From positions 1 through 34,067 of the forward strand of contig NZ_JAILWL010000010.1 in assembly GCF_025698965.1 (NCBI RefSeq): 34,067 nucleotides of DNA. The letters are read 5' to 3'. A program made the position numbers and the translations under genes. Below the pieces are notes generated by a model. It was not told where the DNA came from. It saw only the letters and a program-made list of their open reading frames with translations, and did no database searches. Origin of the DNA: Roseibium sp. (lineage in GTDB: Bacteria > Pseudomonadota > Alphaproteobacteria > Rhizobiales > Stappiaceae). Numbering within the stretch: the stretch's first letter is position 1; each line of letters begins with the position of its first letter. Below, one piece after another: positions 6,047 to 25,849 of the stretch.

Positions 6047-6892
6047 GTGACCGAAATTATTTGGTTTGACGGCGGTACAAGTGTTGTCGGGACAAACCGC
6101 CCGGAGATACCCACCGACGGCGAGGGACCTGTTCGCAAGGTCAAGTTAAAGCCGTTTGGAATGGCCGCCTGCACCGTATCCGTTTCGGAGTTTGCGAAAT
6201 TCGTAATGGGTACAGGCTATGTGACAGAAGCAGAAAAAATCGGCTGGTCGTTTGTGTTTCGCGGTCTGTTGGACCAGGAATTGGGGCCGAAACCACCCGG
6301 TCTGCCTTGGTGGAACAGCGTCGAAGGTGCTACCTGGAAAACTCCCCTCGGACCAGAGACGGAAGCGTCTGCGCGTCCAAACCATCCGGTTGTCCATGTT
6401 TCGCATAACGATGCGGTCGCCTATGCCGAATGGGCAGGTGGTCGGTTGCCGTCCGAGGCAGAGTGGGAGCATGCCGCCCGAGGCGGAGCGGAACTTGTTC
6501 GTTACCCGTGGGGGGACAGGGAGCCGGACGATGATGGCTTCCAGCCCTGCAACATTTGGCAGGGCGAGTTTCCAACTCAAAATACTTGCAAGGACGCCTA
6601 TTACGGAACCGCGCCGGTCGACAGTTTCGAGTCGAACGCCGCCGGACTTTACAACATGAGCGGCAACGTCTGGGAATGGTGCCATGACCTCTTCAGGATA
6701 CGGTCTCTCAGCTCAAAGGCTAAATCGCGGAACGAAAAAGCGCGCCGGGAAAAGGAAAGGTTATTGAAGGGGGGATCATACCTCTGTCACCGCAGTTATT
6801 GCTGGCGTTACCGGATCGCTGCCCGAACCGGTCGACAGCCCGACAACGCCACGTCTCATTGCGGTTTCCGCCTGGCGTTCGATCCTGCCTGA
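6047..6892 (+). CDS. Formylglycine-generating enzyme (sulfatase-modifying factor)
   Basis: This 281-residue protein converts the active-site cysteine of sulfatases to formylglycine, using oxygen and copper, before they can work. The FGE-sulfatase fold is recognisable throughout: [10 protein letters not shown] near the start, [20 protein letters not shown] at 113-132, [15 protein letters not shown] at 133-147, and [11 protein letters not shown] at 201-211. The key motif [11 protein letters not shown] at 242-252 gives Cys247 and Cys252 with the same spacing as the two catalytic cysteines of human SUMF1. It is therefore a true FGE rather than one of the many related proteins lacking them. The start is GTG after an AAAGGG. 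There is no signal peptide, so it acts in the cytoplasm, which fits the two unexported sulfatases downstream. A basic stretch at 219-239 precedes the active-site motif. Confidence 0.93.
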
Positions 6893-7065
6893 TTCAGGAT
6901 CGTATGCGCCTCTTTTGGTTGAGCTATCGAGATGGGCCGCATGTGATCCATCATGGAGTTGCCGGGAGGAAACCAGTTGATCTGCGATGTTTCACAAATT
7001 CAACACGTGCATGATCAGCCAAAGTCGATTGAGCTGGCTTCAGCGCGTTAGGGCAAGCGTCTCGG

Positions 7066-7761
7066 TTAGGAAAAGAAATTCTGCAAGTGGTCATCTATCG
7101 CCACTGCCGCCGCAGACAGGTGTTCGCTCATCATTTGTTCCGCTTTTGCAGCGTCCCGGGCTTCCAGTGCTTCGATTATCCGCTTGTGTTCTTTCTGGGA
7201 TTCCGCTCGGCGGTCGGCAGACTGAAACGGAGCGCGTTGAAAAGGGGCAATGCGCAAGCGGCAGAACTCGACTGCATCAATCAGGTCAGTGTTCTGCGTA
7301 CCAGAAATAATCGCGCTATGAAACTTCCGGTTGGCAAGCGCATAGCCTTCAGCGTCGCCAGACTTGTGAAGCGTTTCACATTGCTCGTGTATCTTGCGGA
7401 GACGGCCGATCTCCACCGCACTGATTCTACTTGCCGCCAGCTTGGCACAGAGTGACTCGAGCAGGATTGAGGCCTCGCACAGCGAAGCGACGCGTTCAAT
7501 CTCCACTCCTTGCACGATTGTTCCTGAATGTGGCTTGCTGCTGACAAGACCGGCCGCTGCAAGCTGTTGCAAAGCTTCTCTAACCGGGGTTCGAGACACT
7601 CCATATTCGTTTGCGAGCGAACGTTCATCCAGACGCGTTCCAGGTTCGCATTTTCCAGACAATATGTCGTCGGCAATATGCCGCCGAAGTACGTTGGCCA
7701 AGGTATCGCCGCGCTCAACTTGCAGCGGTTTCACTGGCGCCGCTTCTTTTTGATTCTTCAA
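7066..7761 (-). CDS. GntR-family (FCD subfamily) transcriptional regulator
   Basis: This regulator of about 231 residues has an N-terminal winged helix (GDTLANVLRRHIADDILSGK, then ERSLANEYGVSRTPVREALQ) and an all-helical FCD ligand domain with the FHSAIISGTQN and HLSAAA histidines that usually bind metal and acid ligands. The frame is open further upstream, but those residues look like translated promoter. I therefore choose the TTG at 7759-7761, which has AGAGAG eight bases before it and gives the usual FCD length. The gene is divergent from the first TctC gene, whose promoter carries GntR-like half-sites. It probably senses an organic acid carried by that transporter (inference). Confidence 0.9.
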   Translation of the reverse strand: MKNQKEAAPVKPLQVERGDTLANVLRRHIADDILSGKCEPGTRLDERSLANEYGVSRTPVREALQQLAAAGLVSSKPHSGTIVQGVEIERVASLCEASILLESLCAKLAASRISAVEIGRLRKIHEQCETLHKSGDAEGYALANRKFHSAIISGTQNTDLIDAVEFCRLRIAPFQRAPFQSADRRAESQKEHKRIIEALEARDAAKAEQMMSEHLSAAAVAIDDHLQNFFS

Positions 7762-7840
7762 TTTGCTGTCTCTCTGAATTTTCTGTCCACAAAGACATAC
7801 CCAAGTCCACCAAAATTTGCGAGTTGCCACACTTAGAATT

Positions 7841-7876
7841 ATTTGGTACACAATATTTAGAAATGGCATACCAAAT
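7841..7876. promoter_or_regulatory. Candidate GntR operator between the gntR-like and tctC genes
   Basis: ATTTGGTA at 7841-7848 and TACCAAAT at 7869-7876 are exact inverted repeats with a 20-base spacer. The right arm overlaps a near-palindromic TGGCATACCA at 7864-7873, which resembles the TGGTATACCA-like sites of FCD-type GntR proteins. The site is 80 bases from the regulator start and 63 from the TctC start, a position suited to control of both. Confidence 0.55.
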
Positions 7877-7938
7877 GGAAATGAGCCATACCGACTACGT
7901 CGGCTGGTGTGATTGCGACGAATTTCTGGGAGGAATAA

Positions 7939-8925
7939 ATGCAGTTGCAAACAAAGCGGTGCGCAGCCGCGATTGGGTTATCCGTGGCTTTGGGAATCGG
8001 CTTTGCGCTTTCGGTGCAGGAAGCGGCGGCAGATTTCCCCGATCAGCCGATTACGCTTGTTGTCGGATCGGCACCAGGATCGGCGCCAGACACGCTTGCG
8101 CGAATTATTGCGGAAGAGATGAGCCAGATCCTGGGGCAACCGGTCGTCACCGACAATCGGCCAGGAGCTGCGGGGGCCATCGCTGCGGGGTCCGTCGCTC
8201 GTTCAGATCCTGATGGTTACACCATGATGATGATGACGGCGGTCCATTCGATTTCACCGACGACGCGATCTGACCTGAACTACAGTTTTGTCGACGATTT
8301 TGAAGGTGTCGGAATGGTCGCCTCGGTGCCATTGCTATTTGTCGTGAACAATGACCTCGAAACAACCGACATGCCGGGTTTCATCGAGCGCGCCAAGCAG
8401 GGAGATATTTTCTATTCCACTCCTGGTGTTGGCACGCTGCAGCATTTGTCGACGGAGGACTTCGCAAAAAAAGTTGGCATTGAAATGACCATGGTTCCCT
8501 ACAAGGGAGGTGGAAATGCAACGAAGGCAGTTCTGGCGAATGAGGTTCAGTTGTTTTTCGCCGGTATCCCACCTGCATTGCCGCATGTGGTTTCCGGGTC
8601 CTTGACTGCGCTGGGTATTTCCACGCCAGAGCGTTCTCCGGTGCTGCACGACGTTCCGACTTTTCAGGAGCTCGGTTTTGAGGACTACAATGTGGACAAC
8701 TGGCACGCACTCTACGTGCCCGCAGGCACACCAGCCGATGTTGTCTCCAAACTGTCAGACGCACTGAACGCCACTCTGGCGAAGCCGGAAACCGCGCAAT
8801 CGTTTCTGAATGTTGGAGCAACCCCAAGTCCCAGTTCTCCCGAAGCTCAAACGGCATTCGGCCACAGCGAAGTGGCGCGCTGGAAGAAGATTGTCGAAGA
8901 CACAAATATCGACCTCGGCAAATAG
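7939..8925 (+). CDS. Tripartite tricarboxylate transporter substrate-binding protein (TctC/Bug), first system
   Basis: This 328-residue periplasmic binding protein has a signal peptide (basic LQTKR, then AAAIGLSVALGIGFALSVQE, cut near AAA-DFP). The Bug-family start DFPDQPITLVVGSAPGSAPDTLARIIAEEM follows. The family loop VTDNRPGAAGAIAAGSVARSDPDGYT and the second-domain segment VPYKGGGNATKAVLANEV are both present. GGGAGGAATAA before the ATG is a strong ribosome site. A sulfatase gene, then TctB and TctA genes, follow on the same strand, so this is the capture component of that transporter. Bug proteins bind carboxylates; the exact ligand is not visible. Confidence 0.93.
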   Translation: MQLQTKRCAAAIGLSVALGIGFALSVQEAAADFPDQPITLVVGSAPGSAPDTLARIIAEEMSQILGQPVVTDNRPGAAGAIAAGSVARSDPDGYTMMMMTAVHSISPTTRSDLNYSFVDDFEGVGMVASVPLLFVVNNDLETTDMPGFIERAKQGDIFYSTPGVGTLQHLSTEDFAKKVGIEMTMVPYKGGGNATKAVLANEVQLFFAGIPPALPHVVSGSLTALGISTPERSPVLHDVPTFQELGFEDYNVDNWHALYVPAGTPADVVSKLSDALNATLAKPETAQSFLNVGATPSPSSPEAQTAFGHSEVARWKKIVEDTNIDLGK

Positions 8926-8962
8926 GATCGGCGCAATCAAGACCAGAAGAACGGCTGTCACT

Positions 8963-10417
8963 ATGAGACCTAGAAACCTCCTGATAATAATGGTTGACCA
9001 GATGGCATCCAAAGCGGTTGGGTGCTACGGCAACCCAACCGTCAAAACACCCAATATCGACCGGTTGGCGTCGAACGGCGTCCGATTCACGAATGCTTAC
9101 GCGACCTCGCCAATCTGCATCCCGGCGCGTGCGGCCTTCGCGACTGGGCAATACCCGAATCAGACAGGGTATTGGGATAATGTCTTTGCGTATGACGGAA
9201 GAGTGCAAAGCTGGGGGCACAGGCTTCGGCAGACGGGGCACCGTTTCACGTCAATCGGAAAACTTCATTTCGAAGGCGAAGACTATCCAACCGGAATCGA
9301 TGAGCAGATCCTGCCGATGCATGTTTATGGCGGCGGCGACGTTTTTGGTTTGGAACGGGAGAACCCGCCGGCAAGGCCTCAAAGTGCGTCGGTTGCGCGC
9401 GAAGTCTTTGTGGGCGACAGCCAGTATACGCGCTATGACAGGAAAATCACGGAACTGACGGAGAACTGGTTCGAGACCAGGTTGAAGGATCAGGGAGAAA
9501 AGCCCTGGGTTCTGTTCACATCATTCATAGCACCTCATTTTCCTCTGACCGTCCCCAAGGAGTATCTGGACCGCTACGAGATTGGAGACATTGAGCTTTC
9601 CAAGAAAAAACTCGATATGAGCGGCTCGATAGGAGAGTGGTGGAGACTATTCCGATACGGCTACAACTTCGACGACTATTTCGTGGATGATGCGCATCGA
9701 CGGCGTGCGCTGCTTCACTACTATGCCTTGTGCTCTTTTGCGGATGACAATGTCGGCAGAGTTGTAAACGCGCTTGAGTCCAGCGGACAGGCCGAGAATA
9801 CAACCATTTTGTTCCTCTCGGACCACGGTGACCACATGGGTGCTCGTGGTTTGTGGGGGAAGTCGACCATGTGGGAAGAGTCGGCAAATGTTCCGATGAT
9901 CCTGGTTGATCCTCAATTGCCCGGCGGGACGGTTTGTGAAACGCCTGTGTCGTTGGTCGATGCATATCCGACAGCGCTGCATACCGTCGGCATTGAGTTG
10001 ACTGCCGAGGAGGAACGCCTGCCGGGACGATCGTTGCTGACCATTGCTGCGGCACAATACGATCCGGATCGTGAAGTCTTCTGCGAGTATCATGCATCAT
10101 GTGCACCCACCGGTCTCATGATGCTGCGCAAGGGTCGTTTCAAATATATCCACTACACCCATTACGGCGCCGAACTCTACGATCTTGAGGCGGATCCGGA
10201 AGAATGCTTCAACTTGGCGACAGATCCTCAGCATCAGAGCATTCTTGAGGAATTCGAGACTGCATTGCGAAAAATTGTAAATCCAGAAGCGGCGGATGCA
10301 CGTGCAAAGCGAGACCAAAAAAAGCGTCTGGAGGCACTTGGCGGATTGGAGGCAATTGTCGCGGAGGGTGGGGTCACGCATACCCCGCCACCCGGCGAAA
10401 AGGCTAGTGTGATGTAG
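8963..10417 (+). CDS. Type I sulfatase (formylglycine-dependent), first copy
   Basis: This 484-residue alkaline-phosphatase-superfamily hydrolase cleaves sulfate esters. The N-terminal metal site is in LLIIMVDQ (Asp12). The maturation motif SPICIPAR gives Cys52 in CxPxR, the residue FGE converts to formylglycine. GKLHF at 99-103 carries a lysine and a histidine, APHFPL holds His192, and SDHGDHMG at 286-293 gives the second metal ligands, with Lys300 beyond. There is no signal peptide, so it should act in the cytoplasm. The start is the ATG at 8963; the open frame reaches back over the TctC end but homology begins here. It sits between the TctC and TctB genes, an unusual insertion that ties its substrate to that transporter. 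Similarity is to the choline-sulfatase-like side of the family, but the substrate is not fixed. Confidence 0.9.
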   Translation: MRPRNLLIIMVDQMASKAVGCYGNPTVKTPNIDRLASNGVRFTNAYATSPICIPARAAFATGQYPNQTGYWDNVFAYDGRVQSWGHRLRQTGHRFTSIGKLHFEGEDYPTGIDEQILPMHVYGGGDVFGLERENPPARPQSASVAREVFVGDSQYTRYDRKITELTENWFETRLKDQGEKPWVLFTSFIAPHFPLTVPKEYLDRYEIGDIELSKKKLDMSGSIGEWWRLFRYGYNFDDYFVDDAHRRRALLHYYALCSFADDNVGRVVNALESSGQAENTTILFLSDHGDHMGARGLWGKSTMWEESANVPMILVDPQLPGGTVCETPVSLVDAYPTALHTVGIELTAEEERLPGRSLLTIAAAQYDPDREVFCEYHASCAPTGLMMLRKGRFKYIHYTHYGAELYDLEADPEECFNLATDPQHQSILEEFETALRKIVNPEAADARAKRDQKKRLEALGGLEAIVAEGGVTHTPPPGEKASVM

Positions 10418-10459
10418 GCCGTTCGTACTACTCACTGACGCGGACCGGAGGAGGGAAAA

Positions 10460-10936
10460 GTGTCGTCGGGTCTGGAAATTAAGGAAAATACAAAAAGTCT
10501 GAGGTCCCGCAATCGGGTCACTGGACTGGTCATGTCGGCGATTGGCGCCTTCGTCATCTACGAGGCGCTGTCTTACAATTTGGGCACTGCAGCCCGCATG
10601 GGACCGGGTTTTTTGCCGCTTGGCCTAGGCATACTGATCATCGTCTTCGGCGTTCTTGTAGCTGTTGTGAATGACGACGGCGATGAGGCCGCGGTCGGAA
10701 TCGTCTGGCGGCCGGTCGTTCTGGTGCTTTCCGCGCTTCTGGCGTTCGCGCTATTGATCGAGCCGGCTGGGCTTATGGCGGCGACTGCGGCACTTGTCTT
10801 TATTTCCGGGCACGCGGACCCGAGCCACACCTGGCGCAGTCTCACTGGCCTTTTCCTGTTCCTCTTGATTTCGGTCTACCTGGTATTCGGAATCGCCCTC
10901 TCAATCCCGTTCAAGCTTGTACCGGGTGTAATCTGA
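10460..10936 (+). CDS. Tripartite tricarboxylate transporter small membrane subunit (TctB), first system
   Basis: This 158-residue protein is poorly conserved, as TctB usually is, but has the right size and the four-helix pattern. Segments are LVMSAIGAFVIYEALSYNLG, PLGLGILIIVFGVLVAVV, PVVLVLSALLAFALLIEP, and a C-terminal pair ending near LFLFLLISVYLVFGIALSI. The motif ARMGPGFLPLGLG is the common GPGxxP signature of the family. The start is GTG, supported by GGAGGAGGGAAAA immediately before it. The stop overlaps the TctA start by one base (TGATG). Confidence 0.9.
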   Translation: MSSGLEIKENTKSLRSRNRVTGLVMSAIGAFVIYEALSYNLGTAARMGPGFLPLGLGILIIVFGVLVAVVNDDGDEAAVGIVWRPVVLVLSALLAFALLIEPAGLMAATAALVFISGHADPSHTWRSLTGLFLFLLISVYLVFGIALSIPFKLVPGVI

Positions 10937-12462
10937 TGGATATCTTCTCAAACCTCGCCCTGGGTTTCGGGGAAGTACTTTCCCTCCAAACCCTGTTTTA
11001 TTGTTTCGTCGGTGTCACGGTCGGAATGCTTATCGGTGTGTTGCCTGGAATTGGCGCTATGGCGGCTATTTCCATGTTGCTGCCGATTACGTTTTATCTC
11101 GAACCGTCCCAGGCGTTGATAATGTTGGCGGGGATTTACTACGGAGCACAGTACGGAAACTCGATTGCATCGATACTGCTAAATACCCCGGGGACGCCCT
11201 CTGGTGCCATCACGTGTCTTGACGGCTACCCACTCGCTCAACAGGGCCGGGCGGGCGCGGCATTGTTCATGACGACATTTTCTTCTTTTGCTGGCAGCTG
11301 TTTTGCAATTGTCTGTCTGGCGGCCTTTACGCCGGTGATTGCAGACTTTGCACTGGGTTTCGGCTCAGCTGAATATTTTGCCCTGATGGTTTTCGGCCTG
11401 GTCCTCGCATCAACCGTTGCTCCCGGTTCTCAAATCAAGGGGCTGGTGATGGTAGTCATTGGCCTGGTCTTGGGACTGGTGGGGACCGATATCACATCCG
11501 GCACTTTCCGCTTTACCTTTGGATTGCTTAATCTCGGCGATGGATTGAATCTCGTCGCCGTCGCGATGGGTGTCTTTGGTGCGGCCGAAGTCATCAACAA
11601 TCTCAGCCGGTCGAGCAGCGATCGTGGTGCCGCCAGAGCGGTTGCTCTGCGCGAGTTGATTCCGCTGAAATCGGACTTGAAACAGATGATCAAGCCGATG
11701 TTGCGTGCCGCGCCGATTGGAACTTTCTTAGGTGTGCTTCCGGGAGCTGGCGCAACGATTGCCTCATTTGTTGCCTACGGCGTCGAAACCCGCGTTGCCA
11801 AGGATCGCAGTCGCTTCGGAAAAGGTGCCATCGAAGGCATTACCGCGCCTGAAACGGCAAACAACGCGGCCGCGCAAGGTGGGTTTATTCCAACGCTTGC
11901 TCTTGGCATTCCAGGTGATGCCGTGATGGCGCTTATGCTTGGCGCGCTCCTGATCCATGGCGTCAATCCGGGCCCGCAATTGATTGGTGAGCATCCCGAA
12001 ATCTTCTGGGGGCTGCTGGCGAGCTTCTGGGTCGGAAATCTGATGCTTCTGGTAATGAACATTCCTCTAATCGGTATCTGGGTGAAGATCCTGGCAATCC
12101 CTTACAAGTATCTCTTCCCGGGAATCTTGATGCTGATTTGTGTTGGCGTATACAGCGTGAACAACAACCCCTTCGATCTCCTTGTTGTCTTCGTCTTTTC
12201 GGTGATCGGCTATCTGATGGTGCTGGCAAGGCTTTCGCCCGCACCCATGATGCTCGGCATCGTGCTCGGCCCGATGATGGAAGAAAACTTCCGCCGCGCG
12301 ATGCTGTTGTCCCGGGGCGATGCCACCGTGTTTCTTGAAAAACCGGTCTGCGCGGCATTGCTGGGCCTGACCCTGCTGGTGCTGGTCTGGCCGTTAATTC
12401 CGATGCTGATGCGCCGCATGCGACGCCCGAAACGCCGTCTCAGGGCGAAAACCCTGAAATGA
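10936..12462 (+). CDS. Tripartite tricarboxylate transporter large membrane subunit (TctA), first system
   Basis: This 508-residue multi-helix permease has the TctA hallmarks. GVLPGIGAMAAISMLLPITF forms the first conserved loop, YYGAQYGNSIASILLNTPGT the second, and LGVLPGAGATIASFVAYGVE the repeat-related loop in the second half. TAPETANNAAAQGGFIPTLA and LGIPGDAVMALMLGALLIHG follow. It is the sodium- or proton-coupled translocation subunit, paired with the TctB just upstream. Length is standard. A basic tail (RRMRRPKRRLRAKTLK) ends the protein. Confidence 0.95.
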   Translation: MDIFSNLALGFGEVLSLQTLFYCFVGVTVGMLIGVLPGIGAMAAISMLLPITFYLEPSQALIMLAGIYYGAQYGNSIASILLNTPGTPSGAITCLDGYPLAQQGRAGAALFMTTFSSFAGSCFAIVCLAAFTPVIADFALGFGSAEYFALMVFGLVLASTVAPGSQIKGLVMVVIGLVLGLVGTDITSGTFRFTFGLLNLGDGLNLVAVAMGVFGAAEVINNLSRSSSDRGAARAVALRELIPLKSDLKQMIKPMLRAAPIGTFLGVLPGAGATIASFVAYGVETRVAKDRSRFGKGAIEGITAPETANNAAAQGGFIPTLALGIPGDAVMALMLGALLIHGVNPGPQLIGEHPEIFWGLLASFWVGNLMLLVMNIPLIGIWVKILAIPYKYLFPGILMLICVGVYSVNNNPFDLLVVFVFSVIGYLMVLARLSPAPMMLGIVLGPMMEENFRRAMLLSRGDATVFLEKPVCAALLGLTLLVLVWPLIPMLMRRMRRPKRRLRAKTLK

Positions 12463-12472
12463 GGGAAACGCT

Positions 12473-12491
12473 GCGGAAGGAAAGTTTCCGC
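12473..12491 (+). promoter_or_regulatory. Stem-loop between TctA and SulP genes
   Basis: GCGGAA and TTCCGC pair around a seven-base loop shortly after the TctA stop. No T-run follows, so it may be a processing or attenuation hairpin rather than an end of transcription. Confidence 0.45.
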
Positions 12492-12546
12492 GCTGTAGAC
12501 GCAACTCTCGAGAGAGCAATCTAGCTACGGATCTAAGGCGAAATGC

Positions 12547-14373
12547 ATGGCTGAGTTCATGTCGCGGACCACTTCACAATTCAAACCGTTTCGACCGTGG
12601 TTCGCTCAAGTTTCGGGGAACTCGTTGCGCGATGATGCCATCGCCGGTTTCACCAATGCGGCGATCGTTTTGCCCCAGGGGGTAGCGTTTGCAGTCATCG
12701 CGGGGTTGCCGCCTCAATACGGGCTGTTCACTGCGATGATCACACCGGTTATAGCCGGAATATGGGGTTCGTCGATGATCATGGTCTCGGGACCGACAAC
12801 GGCCATTTCCGCCGTCATGTTCGCGTCACTGTCGGGAATGGCCCCTCCAGGGACGCCCGTCTATGTGAACCTGGCCCTTACCTTGACGATAGTCGCTGGT
12901 CTTTTTCAGCTTGCTGCGGGCATGTTGCGCCTCGGCGGGTTGATTTCCTTTATTTCGCATTCGGTTATCGTCGGATTCACGGCGGCGGCCGCCCTCCTGA
13001 TTGCCGTGTCCCAGCTTGGCGGCGTGCTTGGAATTGAAATCGAACAAGGCGGAGGCGTGATTGACCGCTTAAGGTTTGTCGTCGGTAACGCCGGACAGGC
13101 CGATTGGCTTGCCCTCATGATTGCGGCATCGACCTTCGGGTCTCTGATCCTTTTTCAGAAGATGAGCCGTAAATTGCCTGCCTATCTTATGGCTCTTGTT
13201 GTTGGAGTGATTGTTGGAGAGCTCTCCGGAGCACGCAGTGCGGGCATCGCGATGTTTTCCGCATTGCCGGCGGTCATTCCCAGCTTTGCTCCGCCCAACA
13301 TCAGCCTGGCGATGATAGCCGAACTTCTGCCAGGATCGGCAACTGTCGCCTTTGTAGGTCTGCTAGAGGCGATCAGTATCGGACGTTCGTTTGCCCTGCG
13401 CCGTCATGAGCGTTACGACGCCAATCAGGAAATCATTGGCCAGGGCCTCTCGAACGCACTTGGCGGGTTCTTCCAGGCTTATGCTGGCTCAGGGTCATTT
13501 ACCCGCTCGGCGCTCAATGCAGAGTCAGGGGCAAGAACGCCGGTCTCTGCGATCTTTGCAGCAGCGTTTTTGCTTGTGTTGCTGCTCATGTTTGCACCGT
13601 TTGTCGATCGCATTCCGGTTCCCGCGATGGCCGGCATCATCATCTATGTCGCCTGGCGCCTCGTTCAGTTTCGCGAAATCCATCACATCATCGAGAACTC
13701 ACGAAGTGAGACGCTCATCCTTGTCCTGACATTTCTGACCGGACTTCTTACGAAACTTGATAATGCGATCGTTGTCGGTGTCATTGCTTCCTTATGCGTT
13801 TTTCTTCACCGCAGTGCGCGCCCGCACCTTGCGGTCATGACGCCGGCAATGTCGCGCGGCCGTCGCTCAATGCGCGGTGTGCTTTATTATGATCTGAAAT
13901 CATGTCCTCAGATCAATTTTATGCGCCTTGAAGGCCCATTGTTTTTCGCGTCGGTCGAACACGTGGAAAGTGAGATGCGTCATGTCGATCGACAGTTCCC
14001 TGGTCGCAAGCTGAAAATTCTTTCAATGAAGGGAATGGGCCGGATGGATCTTGCCGGCGCCGACCTCCTGATCCAGGAAATCAGGGACGCTCGGGAAGTC
14101 GGCGGCGATTATCACATTGTCGCGGCCCATTTCACGATCGTCCGAGCGCTCAAAAAAATGCAAGTACTGGAAGCGCTTGGGCCAGAAAACCTGCATCCCT
14201 CGAAGGGCGACGCAATCGAGGCCACCGTTGCACAAGTGGAACCGGCCATCTGCCGCACGTGCACGATCCGGGCGTTCACGGAATGCAAAGGCAAACCTGC
14301 ACCAAAGAGCATCGATCCCTATTGCGACCCCCCGGTTATTGAGAATGTCTATTTGGAGCGAAAGAAATGGTGA
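12547..14373 (+). CDS. SulP-family inorganic anion transporter with STAS domain
   Basis: This 608-residue membrane protein has the SulP core. DAIAGFTNAAIVLPQGVAFA and the following AGLPPQYGLFTAMITPVIAG form the family signature, with SGPTTAISAVMFASLSG next. The membrane part ends near residue 430. A cytoplasmic STAS domain spans roughly 450-545 (INFMRLEGPLFFASVEHVES, then GMGRMDLAGADLL). The C-terminal tail has four cysteines, Cys569, Cys572, Cys580 and Cys593, a CxxC-type pattern that is unusual for the family. SulP proteins move sulfate, bicarbonate or dicarboxylates. Placed between sulfatase genes, sulfate is the obvious candidate, and direction could be efflux of sulfate released in the cytoplasm (inference). 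Confidence 0.9.
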   Translation: MAEFMSRTTSQFKPFRPWFAQVSGNSLRDDAIAGFTNAAIVLPQGVAFAVIAGLPPQYGLFTAMITPVIAGIWGSSMIMVSGPTTAISAVMFASLSGMAPPGTPVYVNLALTLTIVAGLFQLAAGMLRLGGLISFISHSVIVGFTAAAALLIAVSQLGGVLGIEIEQGGGVIDRLRFVVGNAGQADWLALMIAASTFGSLILFQKMSRKLPAYLMALVVGVIVGELSGARSAGIAMFSALPAVIPSFAPPNISLAMIAELLPGSATVAFVGLLEAISIGRSFALRRHERYDANQEIIGQGLSNALGGFFQAYAGSGSFTRSALNAESGARTPVSAIFAAAFLLVLLLMFAPFVDRIPVPAMAGIIIYVAWRLVQFREIHHIIENSRSETLILVLTFLTGLLTKLDNAIVVGVIASLCVFLHRSARPHLAVMTPAMSRGRRSMRGVLYYDLKSCPQINFMRLEGPLFFASVEHVESEMRHVDRQFPGRKLKILSMKGMGRMDLAGADLLIQEIRDAREVGGDYHIVAAHFTIVRALKKMQVLEALGPENLHPSKGDAIEATVAQVEPAICRTCTIRAFTECKGKPAPKSIDPYCDPPVIENVYLERKKW

Positions 14374-14449
14374 GCTCTGCTTTGGCCCCTGTTCTCCAAA
14401 ACCTGAACACCTGCGAACCACGACCAATGTGAAAAGGCTGGAAAGACTA

Positions 14450-15208: not shown

Positions 15209-15241
15209 CCGGTCCAAAGCCAGAGCACAGGAGAAGCGATA

Positions 15242-16980: not shown

Positions 16981-17889
16981 TCAATGCTGAAGGGATGTCA
17001 TGGTGCCAAGGAAGCGGGTGGTGCTATCTTTGATCAGGTCCATAAGGTGACCGGCAGTCTGCGTGACTTCCTCGTCAGATCGCCGAATGAACCCAAAACT
17101 GCTCTTCGGCGCACTTTCGATCGGTACCAATCGTACTGAATTCTTTGCCCAATCAGGCATCAATGCATCGAGGATTGCCACCCCGTGCCCCTTTGCGACG
17201 AAGGCGCAGCAATCGTCGACTCTTGAAACATGAAGCCGCGAAATCGGTGTCATACCCGCTTCATCGAACATTTGCTGCGCCCGAATGCCAATCATGGTGT
17301 TCGGTGGCAAGAGTATGAACGCTTCGTCTGCGAGCTCTCCAAGCTTGAGTGATGATCTGTCCGCAAATCTGTGGTTTGGAGGAAGCACGGCTACGGTCGG
17401 TAGCGAACAAAGATGCTCTGAGACGAGGTTGCTGTGATGCATGGGCAGTGAGCCGAGCGCGAGATCACACGATCTGTTCAACACACTTCGCAGGATCAGG
17501 GATCGGCCTTCAACAATGAGCGAGACATCCTGGTCGGGCTGCTCGTTTAGGAAGCTCGACAATGCGGGAAGGGTGACAGCGGAAACGAGCCGTGGCATTA
17601 CCGACAGGCGCAGCCGTCGTAGAGGCAGACGCCTTATCTCCGAAGCAACTTCGTTGATGCGTTCCAATTCCTGCAGGGAGGGTTCAATCCTCCTCAAAAG
17701 TTCAATGCATTCGCCGGTTGGTGAGAGTGTTCTGCCGCTCCTTGAAAACAACTTCAGTCCGATTGACGCCTCAAGTCTGGTGATCTGGCGGCTCAATGCT
17801 GCCTCGCTGATATTCAGCTCCTGGGCCGCCGAATTCAGACTGCCGCGCGTCACAATCATGTTAAGCGCGGTAAGGGTCTTAAGCTTCAT
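16981..17889 (-). CDS. LysR-family transcriptional regulator
   Basis: This 302-residue regulator begins MKLKTLTALNMIVTRGSLNS, followed by AAQELNISEAALSRQITRLE, the DNA-binding helices. The effector domain follows (LRLSVMPRLVSAVTLPALSS, later VSRVDDCCAFVAKGHGVAIL). The frame is open for 38 more codons upstream, but the LysR fold starts at the ATG at 17887-17889. It is divergent from the second TctC gene, the usual place for a regulator of a tripartite transporter. A strong inverted repeat lies in the shared promoter. The inducer is unknown and probably related to the carried acid. Confidence 0.92.
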   Translation of the reverse strand: MKLKTLTALNMIVTRGSLNSAAQELNISEAALSRQITRLEASIGLKLFSRSGRTLSPTGECIELLRRIEPSLQELERINEVASEIRRLPLRRLRLSVMPRLVSAVTLPALSSFLNEQPDQDVSLIVEGRSLILRSVLNRSCDLALGSLPMHHSNLVSEHLCSLPTVAVLPPNHRFADRSSLKLGELADEAFILLPPNTMIGIRAQQMFDEAGMTPISRLHVSRVDDCCAFVAKGHGVAILDALMPDWAKNSVRLVPIESAPKSSFGFIRRSDEEVTQTAGHLMDLIKDSTTRFLGTMTSLQH

Positions 17890-18056: not shown

Positions 18057-19046
18057 ATGATACCTGATCGACCTTACTCTCAGATCAAGTCAACTCTGTT
18101 GGGAGCCGCAATTGCATTTGCTGCAAGCTTGCCAATGGCGGCACCGGCATTGTCCGATTATCCCGAAAAACCAATCACCATCCTGGTTGGCTTTGCGCCC
18201 GGCGGTGGCAATGACATTTATGCCCGGCTGATTGCCGATGGTCTGCGCGAAGACCTTGGACAACCGGTCGTGGTCGTGAACAAGCCTGGCGCCGCTGGCA
18301 GTATTGCCGCCAAGGATGCTGCGGAGGCAGATGGTGATGGGTACACGCTGCTAGTCACCAACGCCGGGACTATGATCTCCAAGGAGATAATCGACGGTGA
18401 CAAGTCGAAAATCGACTCGGAAAAAGACTTCATCGTTCTGGGGAGCATTGGGCGGCTGGAAACAGCTGTAATGGTGCCGACCGACAGCCAGTTTGAAACG
18501 GTTGGCGAACTGATAGACTACGCAAAATCAAATCCTGGCTCCTTGAAATGGGCGCATGCCGGGCGGGGGAGTTTTCAGACACTTGGCGGCTTCACGCTGC
18601 TCGAAACGATAGGCGTGTCCGCCAAAGACATTCCTTTCAAGGGGGGCGCGCTTGCCAGAGGAGCGCTGATTGCCCGCGAGGTCGATTTCACAGTTGCGGG
18701 TCTGCAATCGGCCAGTGGATATGAAGGCGAAATCAAACCGCTTGCGGTCATGAACAACGAGCGGGATCCGAACTTTGAATACGTTCAAACTCTAAGTGAC
18801 GCCGGGTTGCCTGACATTGATTGGTCTGGCCCGATCATGGTTTTTGCTCCCGACGATATTCCCGCCGAAATTGTGGACGCACTCACAACGTCCATCGAAA
18901 AGGTTGCGCTTTCGGAGAGCTATGAGGAGGCCACAACAGCCGCGGGCTTGTCGCCCAGATACATGTCTCCGGTGGCTTCAGAAAACCGGATGCATGTTCT
19001 TCGGGCAAATCTGGTGGGCGTGATCGCGCAGATCTTCAAAAAGTGA
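18057..19046 (+). CDS. Tripartite tricarboxylate transporter substrate-binding protein (TctC/Bug), second system
   Basis: This 329-residue binding protein has a signal peptide (STLLGAAIAFAASLPMAAPA) and a mature start near DYPEKPITILVGFAPGGGND. The Bug loop VVNKPGAAGSIAAKDAAEAD is present, as is IPFKGGALARGALIAREVDF in the second domain. AGGAG lies about ten bases before the ATG. TctB and TctA genes follow directly, giving a complete second transporter. It differs clearly from the first TctC in the ligand loops (GGGND rather than GSAPD), so a different organic anion is likely. Confidence 0.93.
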   Translation: MIPDRPYSQIKSTLLGAAIAFAASLPMAAPALSDYPEKPITILVGFAPGGGNDIYARLIADGLREDLGQPVVVVNKPGAAGSIAAKDAAEADGDGYTLLVTNAGTMISKEIIDGDKSKIDSEKDFIVLGSIGRLETAVMVPTDSQFETVGELIDYAKSNPGSLKWAHAGRGSFQTLGGFTLLETIGVSAKDIPFKGGALARGALIAREVDFTVAGLQSASGYEGEIKPLAVMNNERDPNFEYVQTLSDAGLPDIDWSGPIMVFAPDDIPAEIVDALTTSIEKVALSESYEEATTAAGLSPRYMSPVASENRMHVLRANLVGVIAQIFKK

Positions 19047-19116
19047 CGTGACGACGGCCTTGCGGGCTATGTGGGGCCGTCTCAATCAAATCAAGAGAAC
19101 GGATAAGAAAATCGCG

Positions 19117-19566
19117 ATGACCCGTCAAATGATGTCCGCAGTTGTCTCCTTCCTTGTCGGCAGTTTCTTTCTTCTCGTCGCCTTTGGCGTTGAGGATACC
19201 GGTGACGATCCTGTCGGACCCGGTATCGTAGCGATCGCGTTTGCCACAGCGATCATGCTGCTTTCCATCGTCCTTGGGACAAGTTCACGTAGACAAAGTG
19301 AAAACGGCAGCAGCGCCACTTTCGCTCCGGTCTCGGTCTTCCTGGCTTATGCGGCTGCCGGACTGATCTGCACATTTGGTATCCGGGTGCTGGGATACAC
19401 ACCTGTGATCTTCCTTGCACTGGCAATACTGCTCTGGTCCTTCGGCACGCGTCGCATGACGTTGCTGGCGGCGATTTCCGCCCTGGCTTCAGCCGGATAC
19501 TACATCTTCTTCATCAGAATGCTCGGGCTTCACGATCCCCGGGATCTCCTCGCCATGGTTCTTTGA
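19117..19566 (+). CDS. Tripartite tricarboxylate transporter small membrane subunit (TctB), second system
   Basis: This protein of about 149 residues has four membrane segments, beginning MTRQMMSAVVSFLVGSFFLL and including VSVFLAYAAAGLICTFGIRV and VIFLALAILLWSFGTR. The motif DPVGPGIVAIAFA matches the family GPG region. A GTG at 19048 in the same frame would add 23 polar residues but has no ribosome site, so I prefer the ATG at 19117. It lies between the TctC and TctA of the second system. As with most TctB, assignment rests on size, helices and neighbours. Confidence 0.85.
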   Translation: MTRQMMSAVVSFLVGSFFLLVAFGVEDTGDDPVGPGIVAIAFATAIMLLSIVLGTSSRRQSENGSSATFAPVSVFLAYAAAGLICTFGIRVLGYTPVIFLALAILLWSFGTRRMTLLAAISALASAGYYIFFIRMLGLHDPRDLLAMVL

Positions 19567-19584
19567 GGGGAAAGGGGACAGGCG

Positions 19585-21090
19585 ATGTCTGAAATTATCC
19601 TGGGATTTTCGACAGTATTTTCGGAACCGCTGACGTTGGGCCTGATACTGGCCGGGGCGCTGTGCGGTGTTTTGGTCGGTGCTCTGCCGGGGCTGACTGC
19701 GGCTGCCGCAATCGCGCTCCTGTTTCCGCTGACGTTCCATCTCGAGCCGTTGCCAGCGCTGGCCTTGCTTTACGTCCTGGGCAAGGCCGGGCGCTATGGC
19801 GGGTCGATCTCGGCGATCCTGTTTAATACTCCCGGCACCGCCGCATCTGCCGCGACCATGCTCGACGGTTACCCGATGACCCGAAAGGGGCAGGCAGGTA
19901 AGGCTCTAAAGGTCAGTGCAGTCGCTTCAGCTTTCGGCGACTTCCTGGGCGAATTGTTGCTAATTTTCGGTGCCGTCAAGATCGCGGTATTCACTAAGAC
20001 ACTCGGACCGCCCGAGTATTTTGCAATCATGATGATGGCTTTCGTAGTGATCGGGAGTGTGGTCGGCGAGTCAGTCGTCAAAGGACTGATTGCCACGGCC
20101 ACCGGAGGATTTCTCGCCCTGGTCGGTACCGATCCGATTTCCGGTTACTCACGCATGACCCTTGGATTTCCTCAACTGGAAGACGGTTTCACGTTGGTGC
20201 CGTTGCTTATCGGGCTCTTCGTTTTCGCGGAAGTTCTGGTACAGGCCGAAATGGTTCATTCAAAGGGCGACGAAGACGTCAACTTTCGATCTTCCCGCGA
20301 AGGATCGCGGCTGCCTATGCCGGAATTCCTTCGGCTGGTTCCAACCATGTTTCGCAGTTCGGTAATCGGGTCTCTGATCGGCATGCTGCCTGGCCTCGGA
20401 TCGTCGGTCGCATGCTTTGTCGCCTATGGCGAGGAACGACGCAGGTCGAAGCGGTCCGGCGAATGGGGCACCGGTGTGCCCGAGGGTGTCGCAGCGCCCG
20501 AAGCCGCCAACAACGCCGTCTCCGGACCAAGCATGATCCCGCTGCTTACGCTGGGGATCCCCGGCAGTACGATAGCGGCAATCTTGATTGGCGTATTCAC
20601 GATACACGGTATTCAGGTGGGGCCTATGATATTCGACCGCGAACCTGCGCTGGTATTCGGGCTCTTTTCTGCAGGACTGATAGGTATCCTCGCTTACGGC
20701 TTGATCGGCTATTTCGGTGCCCCATTGGTCGGTAGAATGATTGCCTATCTGCCGCCACGTATCATTTATCCGTTCGTTTTCGTCACCGCGTTCTCGGCTG
20801 TCTATTCAGGCAACAACAGCGTGTTTGACATTGGTGTCGCCCTGATTTTCGGTGTTATCGGCTATGCTATGCGCAAGTCCGGATTCCCGATCGCGGCATT
20901 TATCATCGGGTTTGTCCTGGCGCGAGGCGCTGAAGAGGCCTTTCGCCAATCGCTTCTTCTTTCAGACAATGGTTTCGGCATTTTTCTCGAACGCCCCGTC
21001 GCGATCGCCTGCTTTGCTATCGCGGCGCTGGTCTCAGTCCTTCGCGGCGCACAATCCCTGCGCCGCACGAAGTCACACGCAAAAACCTAG
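19585..21090 (+). CDS. Tripartite tricarboxylate transporter large membrane subunit (TctA), second system
   Basis: This 501-residue permease shows the TctA conserved loops: GALPGLTAAAAIALLFPLTF, GRYGGSISAILFNTPGTAAS, GMLPGLGSSVACFVAYGEER, VAAPEAANNAVSGPSMIPLL and LGIPGSTIAAILIGVFTIHG. GGGGACAGGCG precedes the ATG. It follows TctB by 18 bases and is followed by the metallohydrolase gene after 19 bases, so those genes are probably in one transcript. Length is normal. Nothing is missing. Confidence 0.95.
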   Translation: MSEIILGFSTVFSEPLTLGLILAGALCGVLVGALPGLTAAAAIALLFPLTFHLEPLPALALLYVLGKAGRYGGSISAILFNTPGTAASAATMLDGYPMTRKGQAGKALKVSAVASAFGDFLGELLLIFGAVKIAVFTKTLGPPEYFAIMMMAFVVIGSVVGESVVKGLIATATGGFLALVGTDPISGYSRMTLGFPQLEDGFTLVPLLIGLFVFAEVLVQAEMVHSKGDEDVNFRSSREGSRLPMPEFLRLVPTMFRSSVIGSLIGMLPGLGSSVACFVAYGEERRRSKRSGEWGTGVPEGVAAPEAANNAVSGPSMIPLLTLGIPGSTIAAILIGVFTIHGIQVGPMIFDREPALVFGLFSAGLIGILAYGLIGYFGAPLVGRMIAYLPPRIIYPFVFVTAFSAVYSGNNSVFDIGVALIFGVIGYAMRKSGFPIAAFIIGFVLARGAEEAFRQSLLLSDNGFGIFLERPVAIACFAIAALVSVLRGAQSLRRTKSHAKT

Positions 21091-21109
21091 TCCGGCAAGG
21101 AAATCAATC

Positions 21110-23362
21110 ATGCCATACAACGACTATCGCCCAGATCTTATGGGCACGGCGACGCTTGAGCCGCGCGGACCATTCGAAGTCCGAAGTTGGCAAAGTCTTA
21201 CTCTGGTCTATACCGCCGGACTGTTCGGTATCGATGACCAAGGCAGTGTCAAGATCGGCATGCGCGGACATTTTGACGGCTCACCGCTACAGACGACAGA
21301 GCCTACACAACCGGGATATGTGACTGCTGAAGCGTCGAATGGAGCGCCTCTTGAGGTTTCGATCGAAACGCGCCGAAATATCCGCCCCTGGAACAAGTCG
21401 ATCTTTATCCGTTGCCTGCGGTATCTAAAGGAAGGGGACACGATTACGCTGCGACTGGGTGACAAGCGCAACGGATCGCCTGGCCTGCAACTTCAGACAT
21501 TCTGCGAAAGCAAACTGACCTTCCAGGTTCTGGTGGATGCTTATGCCACTTACGACTACGTTCCGTTGGCGGAGGCGCGAACACCGTATGTTTCGGTCGT
21601 TCCAACAGTGCCGGCGGTTTGGAAAATCGTCGCACCAACACTGCGCCGTCCCGGAGAACCTTTCCGGATCTCAATCAAGGCCGAAGATGTGTGGGGCAAC
21701 CCATCTGACAAGATCGACCAGACGATCCGGCTGTCGGCGACAGGTAGGGTAGACGGCCTGCCAGAAAACGTAACCTTTCTGCCAGGCGAATTCGTGCAAA
21801 TTGCCGAAAGACTGAAAGTGGAGGAAGAGGGAACGTACACGATACGCGCGCACGACGAACGTGGAAACCTCCTCGCAATGTCAAACCCTATCGTGATCAA
21901 ACCTTGTTCCTTCGCCCATTTCTGGAGCGATATGCATGGCCAGAGTGGGGAGACGATCGGTATCAACACTGCAAGGGAGTATTTCGACTTTGCGCGAAAC
22001 AAGTCTTTCCTCGACATTTGCGGTCATCAAGGAAATGATTTCCAGATCACGGACGCCTTCTGGCAGGAGCTCAACTGTCTGACGGCGGAGTTTAACGAAG
22101 ACGACCGGTTTCTAGCGGTCCCCGGTTACGAGTGGTCGGGGAATACCGGCACGGGTGGCGACCACAATGTGTGGTACCGGGGTGAGGGCAGGCCGATCTA
22201 CCGTTCAAGCCGCGCCTTGATCGCAGACCGCACCCGCACGGACAAAGATGCCCACAGGTTGCCGGATCTGTTTGACCGGCTCGAAGGCGAGGACGCGATC
22301 GTCGTCGCGCATGTTGGCGGCCGGCATGCGGACGTCAAATATGCTTTTGAAGCGAAGCTTGAACCGTCGGTCGAGATTCACTCCGCCTGGGGCACATTCG
22401 AATGGATCCTGAAAGACGCGATTGAAATGGGATATCGCGTCGGCATCGTTGGCTCAAGCGATGGGCATAAAGGCAGACCCGGGGCGAGCTATCCCGGTGA
22501 CAGCAGTTTCGGCTCCTACGGCGGGCTTACCTGCCATCTGCTGCCGCGTCTCAATAGGGATGCGCTGTTTGCTGAATTCCGCAAGCGCCACCATTATGCC
22601 ACGACCGGGGCACGGATATTCCTGGATGTGGCCGGACAATTTGACAATGGCTGCCGGGTGCTTCAGCCGGATTCGTCGACATCTCCGGCAACTCAATGCC
22701 TCATGGGAGATGTCGTTGAAACCGGTAACGAGTCCATGCGGCTGGCCCTTCGCGTTGAGGGATCGGCCCCGATCGAGCGTGTCGAAATATTCGATGCGAC
22801 AGAACTCATCAGGACATACCGGACATGGGAGCAGCGCGAGCTTGGAAACCGGATACGTGTCACCGTTGCGGGTCAACGTTACCGCGGCCGCGGTCGGCTT
22901 GTGCGCTGGCAGGGCAAACTAAGGCTAAGCGGCGGTGAAATAGAACGGTACGCGGCCGTCAATTTCTGGAACCACAACGAGCAACCTAAACAGGTCTCTG
23001 ACAGCGAAATCATCTGGACCGCGGTCACGACCGGAGGCGAGGCGGCGATCGATATCTGGGTCGACGCAGCAGCCATGGAAGGCGACGTGATCATCGATAC
23101 GAATTTCGAGGGTGGGAGGTTTGCGATGCGATCGCTCGACGCCGACGGTGAAACGGTAAATTGCGGCGGTATGGACATTCGCTTCAACGTGAAAAGACTG
23201 CCCGAAATCCTCAAGACCTGTTCGTTCGATCAATGCGTAGAGCTGCCGCTCTCGCGAAAGAAGGAAAACAAATTCTTTGTCAAGGTAACGCAGGAGGACG
23301 GGCACAAGGCCTGGTCGAGTCCGATCTATGTATCCAGCAGTTCCCAGGGGGATGTCCGATGA
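21110..23362 (+). CDS. DUF3604-type PHP-superfamily metallohydrolase
   Basis: This 750-residue protein has no signal peptide. The first 265 residues are beta-rich, ending in an Ig-like segment (PGEPFRISIKAEDVWGNPSD to TYTIRAHDERGN). The rest is a PHP-like metal-dependent hydrolase. Candidate metal ligands lie in SDMHGQS at 273-279, CGHQGND at 304-310, AHVGGRH at 400-406, EIHSAWGT near 422-429, SSDGHKGRPG at 449-458, and HHYATTG at 494-500. The first motif is H-G-Q rather than the classic H-x-H. Another 240 or so residues of beta-type sequence follow. AAGGAAA supports the ATG; the frame is open upstream only through overlap with TctA. Family members are mostly of unknown function; hydrolysis of a carbon-skeleton intermediate is inference. 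It overlaps the next gene as ATGA. Confidence 0.8.
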   Translation: MPYNDYRPDLMGTATLEPRGPFEVRSWQSLTLVYTAGLFGIDDQGSVKIGMRGHFDGSPLQTTEPTQPGYVTAEASNGAPLEVSIETRRNIRPWNKSIFIRCLRYLKEGDTITLRLGDKRNGSPGLQLQTFCESKLTFQVLVDAYATYDYVPLAEARTPYVSVVPTVPAVWKIVAPTLRRPGEPFRISIKAEDVWGNPSDKIDQTIRLSATGRVDGLPENVTFLPGEFVQIAERLKVEEEGTYTIRAHDERGNLLAMSNPIVIKPCSFAHFWSDMHGQSGETIGINTAREYFDFARNKSFLDICGHQGNDFQITDAFWQELNCLTAEFNEDDRFLAVPGYEWSGNTGTGGDHNVWYRGEGRPIYRSSRALIADRTRTDKDAHRLPDLFDRLEGEDAIVVAHVGGRHADVKYAFEAKLEPSVEIHSAWGTFEWILKDAIEMGYRVGIVGSSDGHKGRPGASYPGDSSFGSYGGLTCHLLPRLNRDALFAEFRKRHHYATTGARIFLDVAGQFDNGCRVLQPDSSTSPATQCLMGDVVETGNESMRLALRVEGSAPIERVEIFDATELIRTYRTWEQRELGNRIRVTVAGQRYRGRGRLVRWQGKLRLSGGEIERYAAVNFWNHNEQPKQVSDSEIIWTAVTTGGEAAIDIWVDAAAMEGDVIIDTNFEGGRFAMRSLDADGETVNCGGMDIRFNVKRLPEILKTCSFDQCVELPLSRKKENKFFVKVTQEDGHKAWSSPIYVSSSSQGDVR

Positions 23363-24282
23363 TCGCTGAAAATGTTCTGGAGCTAATCGGCAATACACCG
23401 ATGATGACGCTGGATAGAACCTTTCCCGGGTGCGCCGGCAGGATCGTGGCGAAGCTTGAATGCCTCAACCCGACTTCCATCAAGGACCGGCCAATGCTGA
23501 ACCTGGTTCGAAAAGCCGTGGCGTCGGGAAAAATCACCTCCTCCACAGTCGTTGTCGAGGCAACCAGCGGCAATTCCGGCATTGCGCTGGCCAGTATCGG
23601 CACGGTTCTGGGGTTCCGCGTTCGCCTCTTCATGAGCGAGGCCTGTAGCGTTGAGCGCCAGAAACTGATGCGCGCTTATGGCGCTGAACTGGTATTGACA
23701 CCTGCCAGCGAGCACACGCGCGGCGCGCGTGATCGAGCTATTGCTTTCTGTGACGCCGATCCAAAGAACACTTTTTTTGTCAACCAGCATAGTGTTGGGG
23801 AAAACGGTGAGGCGCACTATCTGTCAACCGGACCGGAGATATGGCGGGCGACAGATGGCAAAGTCGGTGCCGTCGTGATCGGTCTAGGAACATGTGGCAC
23901 GCTTGACGGGCTGTCGCGATATTTCAAGGAGAAGGATCCAGCAGTTCGCATCATCGGAGTGGAACCCAAGGCAAGCCCCGTTTTCTCCGGTGGCGCATCC
24001 GCACCGCATCGCATCAACGGAATAGGCCCCGGTCTGGTGACCGAGAATTTCAAGCGTGTCAGTGACCTGGTGGACGACATTCTGTTGATTGACGATGATA
24101 CGGCGTTCGAATGGGCTCGAATTGTATCCAGGGCCGAAGGCCTGATTGTCGGCCCGACCAGCGGCGCGACCGTATGGGGTGCAGATCAAGTCCGGAAGTC
24201 ACTCGATCTAGCGGACAGGAAGATTGTCTGCTTCCTATACGACAGCGGAGAACGGTATCTGTCCATGGACGGTCTGTTCTGA
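23359..24282 (+). CDS. Cysteine synthase-like PLP-dependent enzyme (fold type II)
   Basis: This 307-residue enzyme has the beta-replacing fold. It begins VLELIGNTPMM, with Lys42 in NPTSIKDRP as the likely PLP lysine. The substrate loop TSGNSG is at 70-75, and the phosphate-binding GLGTCGTLDG and C-terminal GPTSGAT segments follow, ending in ERYLSMDGLF. The PLP-lysine motif is one residue shorter than the usual NPxxSxKDR, so it may not be an ordinary O-acetylserine sulfhydrylase. It is coupled to the metallohydrolase by an ATGA overlap. It could make cysteine or a related amino acid from released sulfur, or eliminate sulfate or another group from a beta-substituted amino acid; both are inference. 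Confidence 0.85.
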   Translation: MIAENVLELIGNTPMMTLDRTFPGCAGRIVAKLECLNPTSIKDRPMLNLVRKAVASGKITSSTVVVEATSGNSGIALASIGTVLGFRVRLFMSEACSVERQKLMRAYGAELVLTPASEHTRGARDRAIAFCDADPKNTFFVNQHSVGENGEAHYLSTGPEIWRATDGKVGAVVIGLGTCGTLDGLSRYFKEKDPAVRIIGVEPKASPVFSGGASAPHRINGIGPGLVTENFKRVSDLVDDILLIDDDTAFEWARIVSRAEGLIVGPTSGATVWGADQVRKSLDLADRKIVCFLYDSGERYLSMDGLF

Positions 24283-25841: not shown

Positions 25842-25849
25842 TTGGAACC

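Follow-up and report, generated by a model that had tools for sequence, protein, structure and literature searches.

Can small sulfated acids be taken into a bacterial cell whole and relieved of their sulfate there? Many of the sulfatase pathways studied in marine bacteria act on polymers outside the cytoplasm, and a locus in Roseibium sp. (contig NZ_JAILWL010000010.1 of assembly GCF_025698965.1) raises the question of whether cleavage may also follow import. Within about 18 kb (positions 6047-24282), it holds a formylglycine-generating enzyme (FGE), two sulfatases of the formylglycine (FGly) type, two TctCBA systems of the tripartite tricarboxylate transporter (TTT) family, a SulP permease, a cytochrome b561-like protein, a DUF3604/PHP hydrolase and a CysK-like pyridoxal phosphate (PLP) enzyme. 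The window, by which we mean the whole stretch analysed here, is one entire contig of 34,067 bases from an assembly of 6.36 Mb in 678 contigs. An initial annotation, made from the sequence alone, had listed these genes as one pathway for import and cytoplasmic desulfation; an open reading frame scan with profile matches recovered every gene it named as an open frame, and two minus-strand regulators, GntR/FCD and LysR, have to be added to its list. The locus is real, and the association of its main parts in other genomes exceeds chance. We consider that it probably comprises two catabolic operons for sulfated organic acids, which would be imported by the TTTs and desulfated in the cytoplasm, the sulfate leaving the cell and the acid serving as a source of carbon.

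In the first operon, the receptor TctC1 would capture a sulfated acid in the periplasm and TctA1/TctB1 would carry it in. In the cytoplasm, FGE would convert the cysteines in the CxPxR motifs of the two sulfatases, Sulf1 and Sulf2, to formylglycine, and both enzymes, which may differ in substrate or position, would cleave the ester. SulP would then release the freed sulfate from the cell, the desulfated acid would enter central metabolism, providing carbon rather than sulfur, and the GntR/FCD regulator would respond to the acid. In the second operon, under LysR control, another TTT would import a related acid, which the presumably cytoplasmic DUF3604/PHP hydrolase would open.

Operon layout and the two sulfatases

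The genes behind FGE fall into two blocks, A (7939-16735) and B (18057-24282), with intergenic gaps of fewer than 90 bases inside each (Table 1). Because each block follows its own divergent minus-strand regulator, GntR/FCD in the case of A and LysR in that of B, we read the locus as two putative operons with separate regulators: operon A, tctC1-sulf1-tctB1-tctA1-sulP-b561-sulf2, in which sulf1 sits between tctC1 and tctB1, and operon B, tctC2-tctB2-tctA2-php-palp. Both transporters are complete TTTs, with TctA, TctB and TctC all above their Pfam cut-offs.

Sulf1 and Sulf2 belong to the FGly-dependent (S1) sulfatases, as both exceed the PF00884 cut-off and carry the CxP[SA]R motif in the form CIPAR. 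In both, the catalytic domain begins with its first strand right at the N-terminus; the cysteine of CIPAR falls at residue 52 or 56, and what we take to be the first active-site aspartate at residue 12 or 16. This leaves no room for a signal peptide, and cleavage of sulfate esters inside the cell is well supported by the sequences. All 15 sulfatases compared from other loci likewise begin at the catalytic domain, 14 of them with CxP[SA]R. The maximal 15-residue hydropathy near the N-terminus lies at 0.65-1.35 for Sulf1, Sulf2, FGE and PHP and at 2.17 and 1.91 for the two TctC proteins, a measure that separates imperfectly, with one of six TctC controls at 0.96 and one sulfatase at 1.55. Since hydropathy is not a clean test, the case for a cytoplasmic location depends on the lack of space ahead of the active site. 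The expectation that both sulfatases and FGE lack export signals was thus borne out at the sequence level, by the missing room in the sulfatases and by the absence of a hydrophobic leader in FGE.

Against the choline-sulfatase model TIGR03417, Sulf1 reaches 311.3 bits and Sulf2 206.9 bits, both under the cut-off of 433.45, and Sulf2 scores 405.9 bits, under the cut-off of 481, with the PRK13759 arylsulfatase model. The best solved-structure relatives of Sulf1 are choline sulfatases. Residues 5-280 of FGE align with solved FGEs, including 5nxl and 6s07, and the enzyme keeps the CHxxYC motif of copper FGEs, whose cysteines are presumably the copper-binding pair. It is not the single FGE of the genome, as family matches also occur on the assembly contigs C99, C63 and C434. 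Contig C63 (L072), which bears an FGE and a sulfatase, is an outlier in composition among 24 sampled stretches (GC 0.467, tetranucleotide correlation of 0.48 to the assembly mean) and may be a contaminant or foreign DNA.

Linkage in other genomes and exchange of partners

Our survey covered 385 genomes of the class, in which, own genome included, 55 have a Sulf1 relative (E<=1e-60) and 34 a PHP relative (E<=1e-20). With P values that are rough because expected and local counts used differing thresholds and rounded genome sizes, TctA lies near 7 of 37 Sulf1-like loci against 0.92 expected (P 2e-5; by genus 6 of 20 against 0.88, P 6e-5) and near 6 of 37 PHP loci against 0.88 expected (P 2e-4; by genus 4 of 21, P 0.006), while PHP has a sulfatase nearby in 4 of 21 genera (0.84 expected, P 0.006). 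The linkage of TTTs with sulfatases and with PHP is therefore above chance but not a rule, most Sulf1-like and most PHP loci having no TctA nearby. Expected counts derive from the TctA count of each genome (E<=1e-30 for TctA, 1e-15 for sulfatases), local matches from tblastn at 1e-10. The Sulf1 tally comprises 37 of the 39 non-own rows at E<=9e-89, leaving out G109:C49 and G178:C236, and the PHP tally 37 of 38 non-own rows.

Operon A has relatives well beyond its genus. A closed 2.6 Mb genome from another family of the class (G381, locus L075) carries homologues of GntR (61% identity), TctC (63%), TctB (53%), TctA (73%), Sulf1 (69-70%) and Sulf2 (73-74%) in one run, with a third sulfatase and a gene order slightly unlike that of the window. 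The same run of TTT1, Sulf1, Sulf2 and GntR (60%), without sulP and b561, is found in an alphaproteobacterial metagenome-assembled genome (L126), and another such genome (L112) shows the Sulf1-Sulf2 end of it on a contig that begins inside Sulf1. The neighbours in L075 and L126, and in L112 from Sulf1 on, include class II aldolases, an FGGY kinase, a HAD hydrolase, a lactonase-like protein and UPF0261. Five more sulfatase genes lie about 34-47 kb from operon A in G381 (G381:C1:1204162-1217127, L191) and form a sulfatase-rich island.

Other loci offer parallels. A 12.6 kb stretch in G109 holds a Sulf1-like gene, TctC, TctB (assigned by position), TctA and a sulfatase, FGE, TauE/SafE and a second TctC-TctB-TctA set (60% to TctA2), and then the contig ends. 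Chelativorans has LysR, TctCBA and a sulfatase; in Sulfitobacter mediterraneus, a sulfatase has OtnK and an aldolase close by, and a TTT follows after 2 kb; and contig C443 of the window's own assembly has a partial sulfatase with TctC and TctA. Other plasmid-borne relatives of Sulf1 and Sulf2 lie near MFS, ABC or TRAP importers. One plasmid record, NZ_CP119142, is a 2.17 Mb Neisseria gonorrhoeae entry in the plasmid collection and probably a chromosome.

The proposal of uptake followed by desulfation inside the cell is thus supported by the linkage of TTTs and cytoplasmic-type sulfatases above chance in other genera, and also by clusters with two TTTs and at least two sulfatases in Salipiger abyssi and G109, both with FGE, and in Paracoccus seriniphilus. 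A check for co-occurrence of the nine families did not bear out a single conserved pathway of all of them, and we rejected that proposal: in G381, 0.7 Mb separate operon A from the PHP homologue, the 20 kb fetched around operon A yielded no SulP, b561 or FGE, and a TTT2-PHP run in Pseudosulfitobacter has no sulfatase match within 12 kb.

Around TctA2, an exchange of partners is seen in several cases. In a tree of 49 TctA proteins, TctA1 falls into a clade with the sulfatase-linked TctAs of L075, L126 and L160 (support 100/98). A clade of 16 (support 100/99) contains all 7 PHP-linked proteins, the one linked to both, 6 of the 17 sulfatase-linked and 2 of the 24 unlinked proteins; these counts describe and do not prove, because the rows were partly chosen for their neighbours, mixing loci picked for a sulfatase or PHP nearby with 24 that have neither within 4 kb. 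TctA2 groups with the TctAs of Pseudosulfitobacter, with PHP behind it, and of Paracoccus seriniphilus, with a sulfatase behind it (support 100/100). Furthermore, single co-directional runs read TctA-TctC-PHP-sulfatase in G378 (L053) and TctA-TctC-PHP-PHP-sulfatase in G306 (L039), and TTT-PHP runs without palp occur elsewhere. In these cases, PHP and sulfatase partners interchange within one TctA clade, which we regard as the most interesting new point.

PHP itself scores above the DUF3604 cut-off (PF12228, 31.8 against 20.4 bits, the match covering part of the model only) and below that of the CehA/McbA model (NF038032, 26.9 against 80 bits). Residues D274, H306, E341, D351, H401, E422 and D451 are invariant in 19 sequences, with H276 and H453 nearly so, and probably serve as metal ligands. 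A predicted model (mean predicted local distance difference score 88.2) retrieved beta-sandwich and other large multidomain proteins with Foldseek, with template modelling scores by query length of at most 0.16 among the 50 matches listed, and a profile search of solved structures gave no match. It is conceivable, if doubtful, that PHP is a metal-dependent, formylglycine-free hydrolase that cleaves sulfated acids delivered by TctA2-type TTTs, such that PHP and sulfatase would replace each other as the cleaving end of a single import-then-cleave system.

Sulfate, substrate and competing explanations

SulP scores above the Sulfate_transp and STAS cut-offs (PF00916, PF01740) and below that of TIGR00815 sulP (336.6 of 380.45 bits). 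In the window's own genome, a paralogue (43-44%) immediately follows a TRAP-linked sulfatase on contig C223 (DctP-DctM-sulfatase-SulP, the sulfatase frame as found being without its N-terminal end). In Salipiger abyssi, TauE/SafE, named as an exporter, lies behind tctA, and in G109 it lies beside FGE. Since TauE/SafE or SulP accompanies such sulfatase loci, the simplest reading is that SulP would act as an outlet for freed sulfate, which fits the use of the acid for carbon. We judged import by SulP less likely; the sulfate movement proposed in the initial annotation is better read as a probable outlet than as an uptake step.

The b561-like protein falls short of the PF03188 cut-off (17.5 against 23.0 bits), and its plasmid homologues are annotated as 'cytochrome b561 domain-containing', one of them adjoining a Sulf1 homologue in Polaromonas. 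A locus of Polaromonas sp. P1-6 (L161) shows matches to PdxA2, rhamnonate dehydratase, a DHDPS-like protein, sulfatases, b561 and SMP-30, with several of the genes broken. The PLP enzyme stays under the cut-offs for cysK (297.5 of 350.95) and cysM (237.9 of 394.2). Relatives at E<=1e-78 occur in 3 of the 385 genomes, own included, and the two others lie in differing surroundings, one next to an EamA transporter and the other next to FAD, PhyH and TPP enzymes. We therefore rejected it as a core part, for want of a conserved link with TTT, sulfatase or PHP; it is probably not a stable component of the system, and the cysteine-synthase-like step once proposed is unsupported.

As to the substrate, sugar-acid genes at some TTT-sulfatase loci (Paracoccus seriniphilus, Sulfitobacter mediterraneus, Salipiger) suggest a sulfated sugar acid of the aldonate or tetronate class, which stays a lead and not a result because its enrichment test, given below, is not significant. 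In G381, an enolase-superfamily (MR_MLE) gene comes immediately after a 59% PHP homologue (L036:8603-11989), a further hint to sugar acids. Ascorbate-2-sulfate, considered because b561 and an SMP-30 lactonase co-occur in some loci, is a guess; searches of the open-access literature for it and for ascorbate catabolism found nothing relevant.

Several observations weigh against the proposed import and desulfation of sulfated acids, in addition to the imperfect hydropathy measure. Among 15 Sulf2 relatives of at least 50% identity on named contigs, several of them cut short, TctA accompanies one and any TTT gene two. Outside the window, only one of the three closest orthologues of TctA2 has sulfatases close by, and the other two show neither sulfatase nor PHP within 3-4 kb. 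SulP and a sulfatase form a close pair in the own genome only, none of the seven non-own SulP matches within the taxonomic order having a sulfatase beside it (flanks of about 3-8 kb for four and 1.5 kb for three); a Sulf1 relative has SulP in its vicinity in a single further case, a weak match (21%) about 7 kb away (L101), and the direction of transport by SulP cannot be read from its sequence. No sugar-acid genes adjoin the window locus, and the excess of such genes at TTT-sulfatase loci over other TctA loci is not significant: 10 of 18 against 4 of 17 with a core list (P 0.09), 8 of 18 against 4 of 17 with same-locus references left out (P 0.29), and 10 of 18 against 7 of 17 with the full list (P 0.50). 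The 18 loci leave out the window locus, its second fetch (L074), the overlapping Salipiger stretch (L153) and contig C443 (L169). Three of 20 drawn control loci proved to contain a sulfatase and were taken from the control set; their addition to the first set gives 8 of 21 (core list, own references out; P 0.49).

That the two operons are unrelated neighbours, A serving a sulfated acid and B (TTT2-PHP-PALP) a non-sulfated ester, lactone or carbamate, is a realistic possibility, if short of an even chance, and it is compatible with the operon A half of our explanation. PHP relatives such as CehA split carbamates, which paper titles agree with, and the separate regulators, the lack of a sulfatase match at the TTT-PHP loci of Pseudosulfitobacter and Sulfitobacter S190 and the 0.7 Mb between operon-A and PHP homologues in G381 all fit such independence; the excess of sulfatases near PHP by genus, the contiguous runs in G378 and G306 and the interchange of partners in the TctA2 clade do not. 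By contrast, we think it improbable that the locus serves to scavenge sulfur, in which case the sulfatases would free sulfate for assimilation, SulP would import more and the CysK-like enzyme would make cysteine. No sulfur-specific regulator model reaches its cut-off, no sulfate-reduction family turned up among the window proteins scanned, the CysK-like gene has the shortcomings described above, and the two comparable loci in Salipiger and G109 carry the exporter TauE/SafE. Nevertheless, some soil bacteria use cytoplasmic sulfatases and importers for sulfur supply, SulP and the CysK-like gene both lie in the locus, and G381 has a weak SulP match (28%) about 5 kb from its CysK-like relative.

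Finally, the 'sulfatases' might, like the PehA-type members of their superfamily, cleave phosphonate or phosphate esters, in a locus for phosphorus. Phosphonate monoester hydrolases are indeed among the solved-structure matches, and the GntR regulator matches the phnR_burk model best, with 124.2 bits of a 271.5 cut-off. Yet the PehA model is far below its cut-off (153.9 and 162.8 of 900), the choline-sulfatase and arylsulfatase models score higher, and the operon contains SulP, no phosphate carrier being found among the window proteins scanned; we consider this explanation very improbable. If the catabolism of sulfated acids holds true, the whole import of small sulfated acids, through a transporter family of its own and together with FGE and an outlet for sulfate, would be a recurring way in which the dissolved organosulfate pool is used as carbon; TTT receptors would gain a new ligand class and DUF3604 a functional lead.

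The locus in its genome and beside known systems

Table 1. Genes of the locus in order along the window, with starts refined after the initial open reading frame calls
Feature	Position	Strand	Remarks
FGE	6047..6892	+	GTG start; PF03781 242.7 bits; no export signal seen
GntR/FCD regulator, divergent to operon A	7066..7869	-	PF00392, PF07729
TctC1, TTT1 periplasmic receptor	7939..8925	+	PF03401 205.3 bits; hydrophobic N-terminal stretch
Sulf1, FGly-type sulfatase, cytoplasmic by sequence	8963..10417	+	PF00884 163.6 bits; CIPAR
TctB1	10460..10936	+	PF07331 60.9 bits
TctA1	10936..12462	+	PF01970 525.2 bits
SulP permease with STAS domain	12547..14373	+	PF00916 285.8 bits, PF01740 32.1 bits
Cytochrome b561-like membrane protein	14450..15208	+	PF03188 17.5 bits, below 23.0 cut-off
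Sulf2, FGly-type sulfatase, cytoplasmic by sequence	15242..16735	+	PF00884 152.1 bits; CIPAR
LysR regulator, divergent to operon B	16981..17889	-	PF00126, PF03466
TctC2	18057..19046	+	PF03401 147.8 bits; hydrophobic N-terminal stretch
TctB2	19117..19566	+	PF07331 39.9 bits
TctA2	19585..21090	+	PF01970 443.4 bits
DUF3604/PHP-type metal hydrolase	21110..23362	+	PF12228 31.8 bits; no export signal seen
CysK/CysM-like PLP enzyme	23359..24282	+	PF00291 218.3 bits; 4-base overlap with php

The left flank (324-5861) holds a minus-strand peptide-type ABC importer, with a LysR regulator just upstream of FGE. The right flank (24381-33663) has the look of amine catabolism, with an FAD oxidoreductase, an aldehyde dehydrogenase, an ABC importer (two permeases, an ATPase with a TOBE domain and a binding protein), a class III aminotransferase and a TetR-type regulator. 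We also weighed a contaminated assembly as the source of the window. Compared with the mean of 24 other stretches, the window's composition is in keeping with the assembly (distance 0.076, correlation 0.975), but Sulf2 was found at E<=1e-60 in none of the 24 genus relatives searched, and the right flank shows only about 65-74% DNA identity to genus relatives in the longer pieces listed. The locus reads as a strain-specific region, likely gained horizontally.

The plasmid pPABY1 of Salipiger abyssi (L153, L160), whose TctA is the next nearest to TctA1 (55%) after L075 and L126, shares with the window the order tctC-sulfatase-tctB-tctA, a second TTT with a sulfatase, a LysR regulator and FGE; it differs in having TauE/SafE behind tctA where the window has SulP, in its IlvD/Edd and KdgK-like kinase genes and in the absence of a PHP match in the stretch. 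No description of this locus was found in the open-access literature. Plasmid p420573 of Paracoccus seriniphilus (L154) likewise has two TTTs, each beside a sulfatase (TTT-sulfatase, sulfatase-TTT), one TctA being 56% identical to TctA2, but continues with LtnD, OtnK, an aldolase and a TIM barrel and shows no SulP, FGE or PHP match in the stretch.

Among characterized systems, choline-O-sulfate utilisation comes close, as its FGly sulfatase BetC acts after import and the best solved relatives of Sulf1 are of this kind; however, the window sulfatases stay under the TIGR03417 cut-off, its importers are TTTs, and its LysR lies far below the cut-off for the choline-sulfate regulator (49.4 of 324.8). 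In Pseudomonas aeruginosa, the cytoplasmic arylsulfatase AtsA is coupled genetically to the sulfate-ester importer AtsRBC, an ABC system under sulfur-starvation control, whereas the window has TTT, FGE and SulP. A TTT-sulfatase locus is not described in passages of PMC7029141, PMC11366302, PMC13050008, PMC10838667 and PMC6383258, a weak absence, as it covers open-access literature only. In PMC13050008, ulvan products are proposed to enter by TRAP or ABC importers, with sulfatases in both periplasm and cytoplasm. Import followed by desulfation is an already known theme, on which the locus in the window is a variation.

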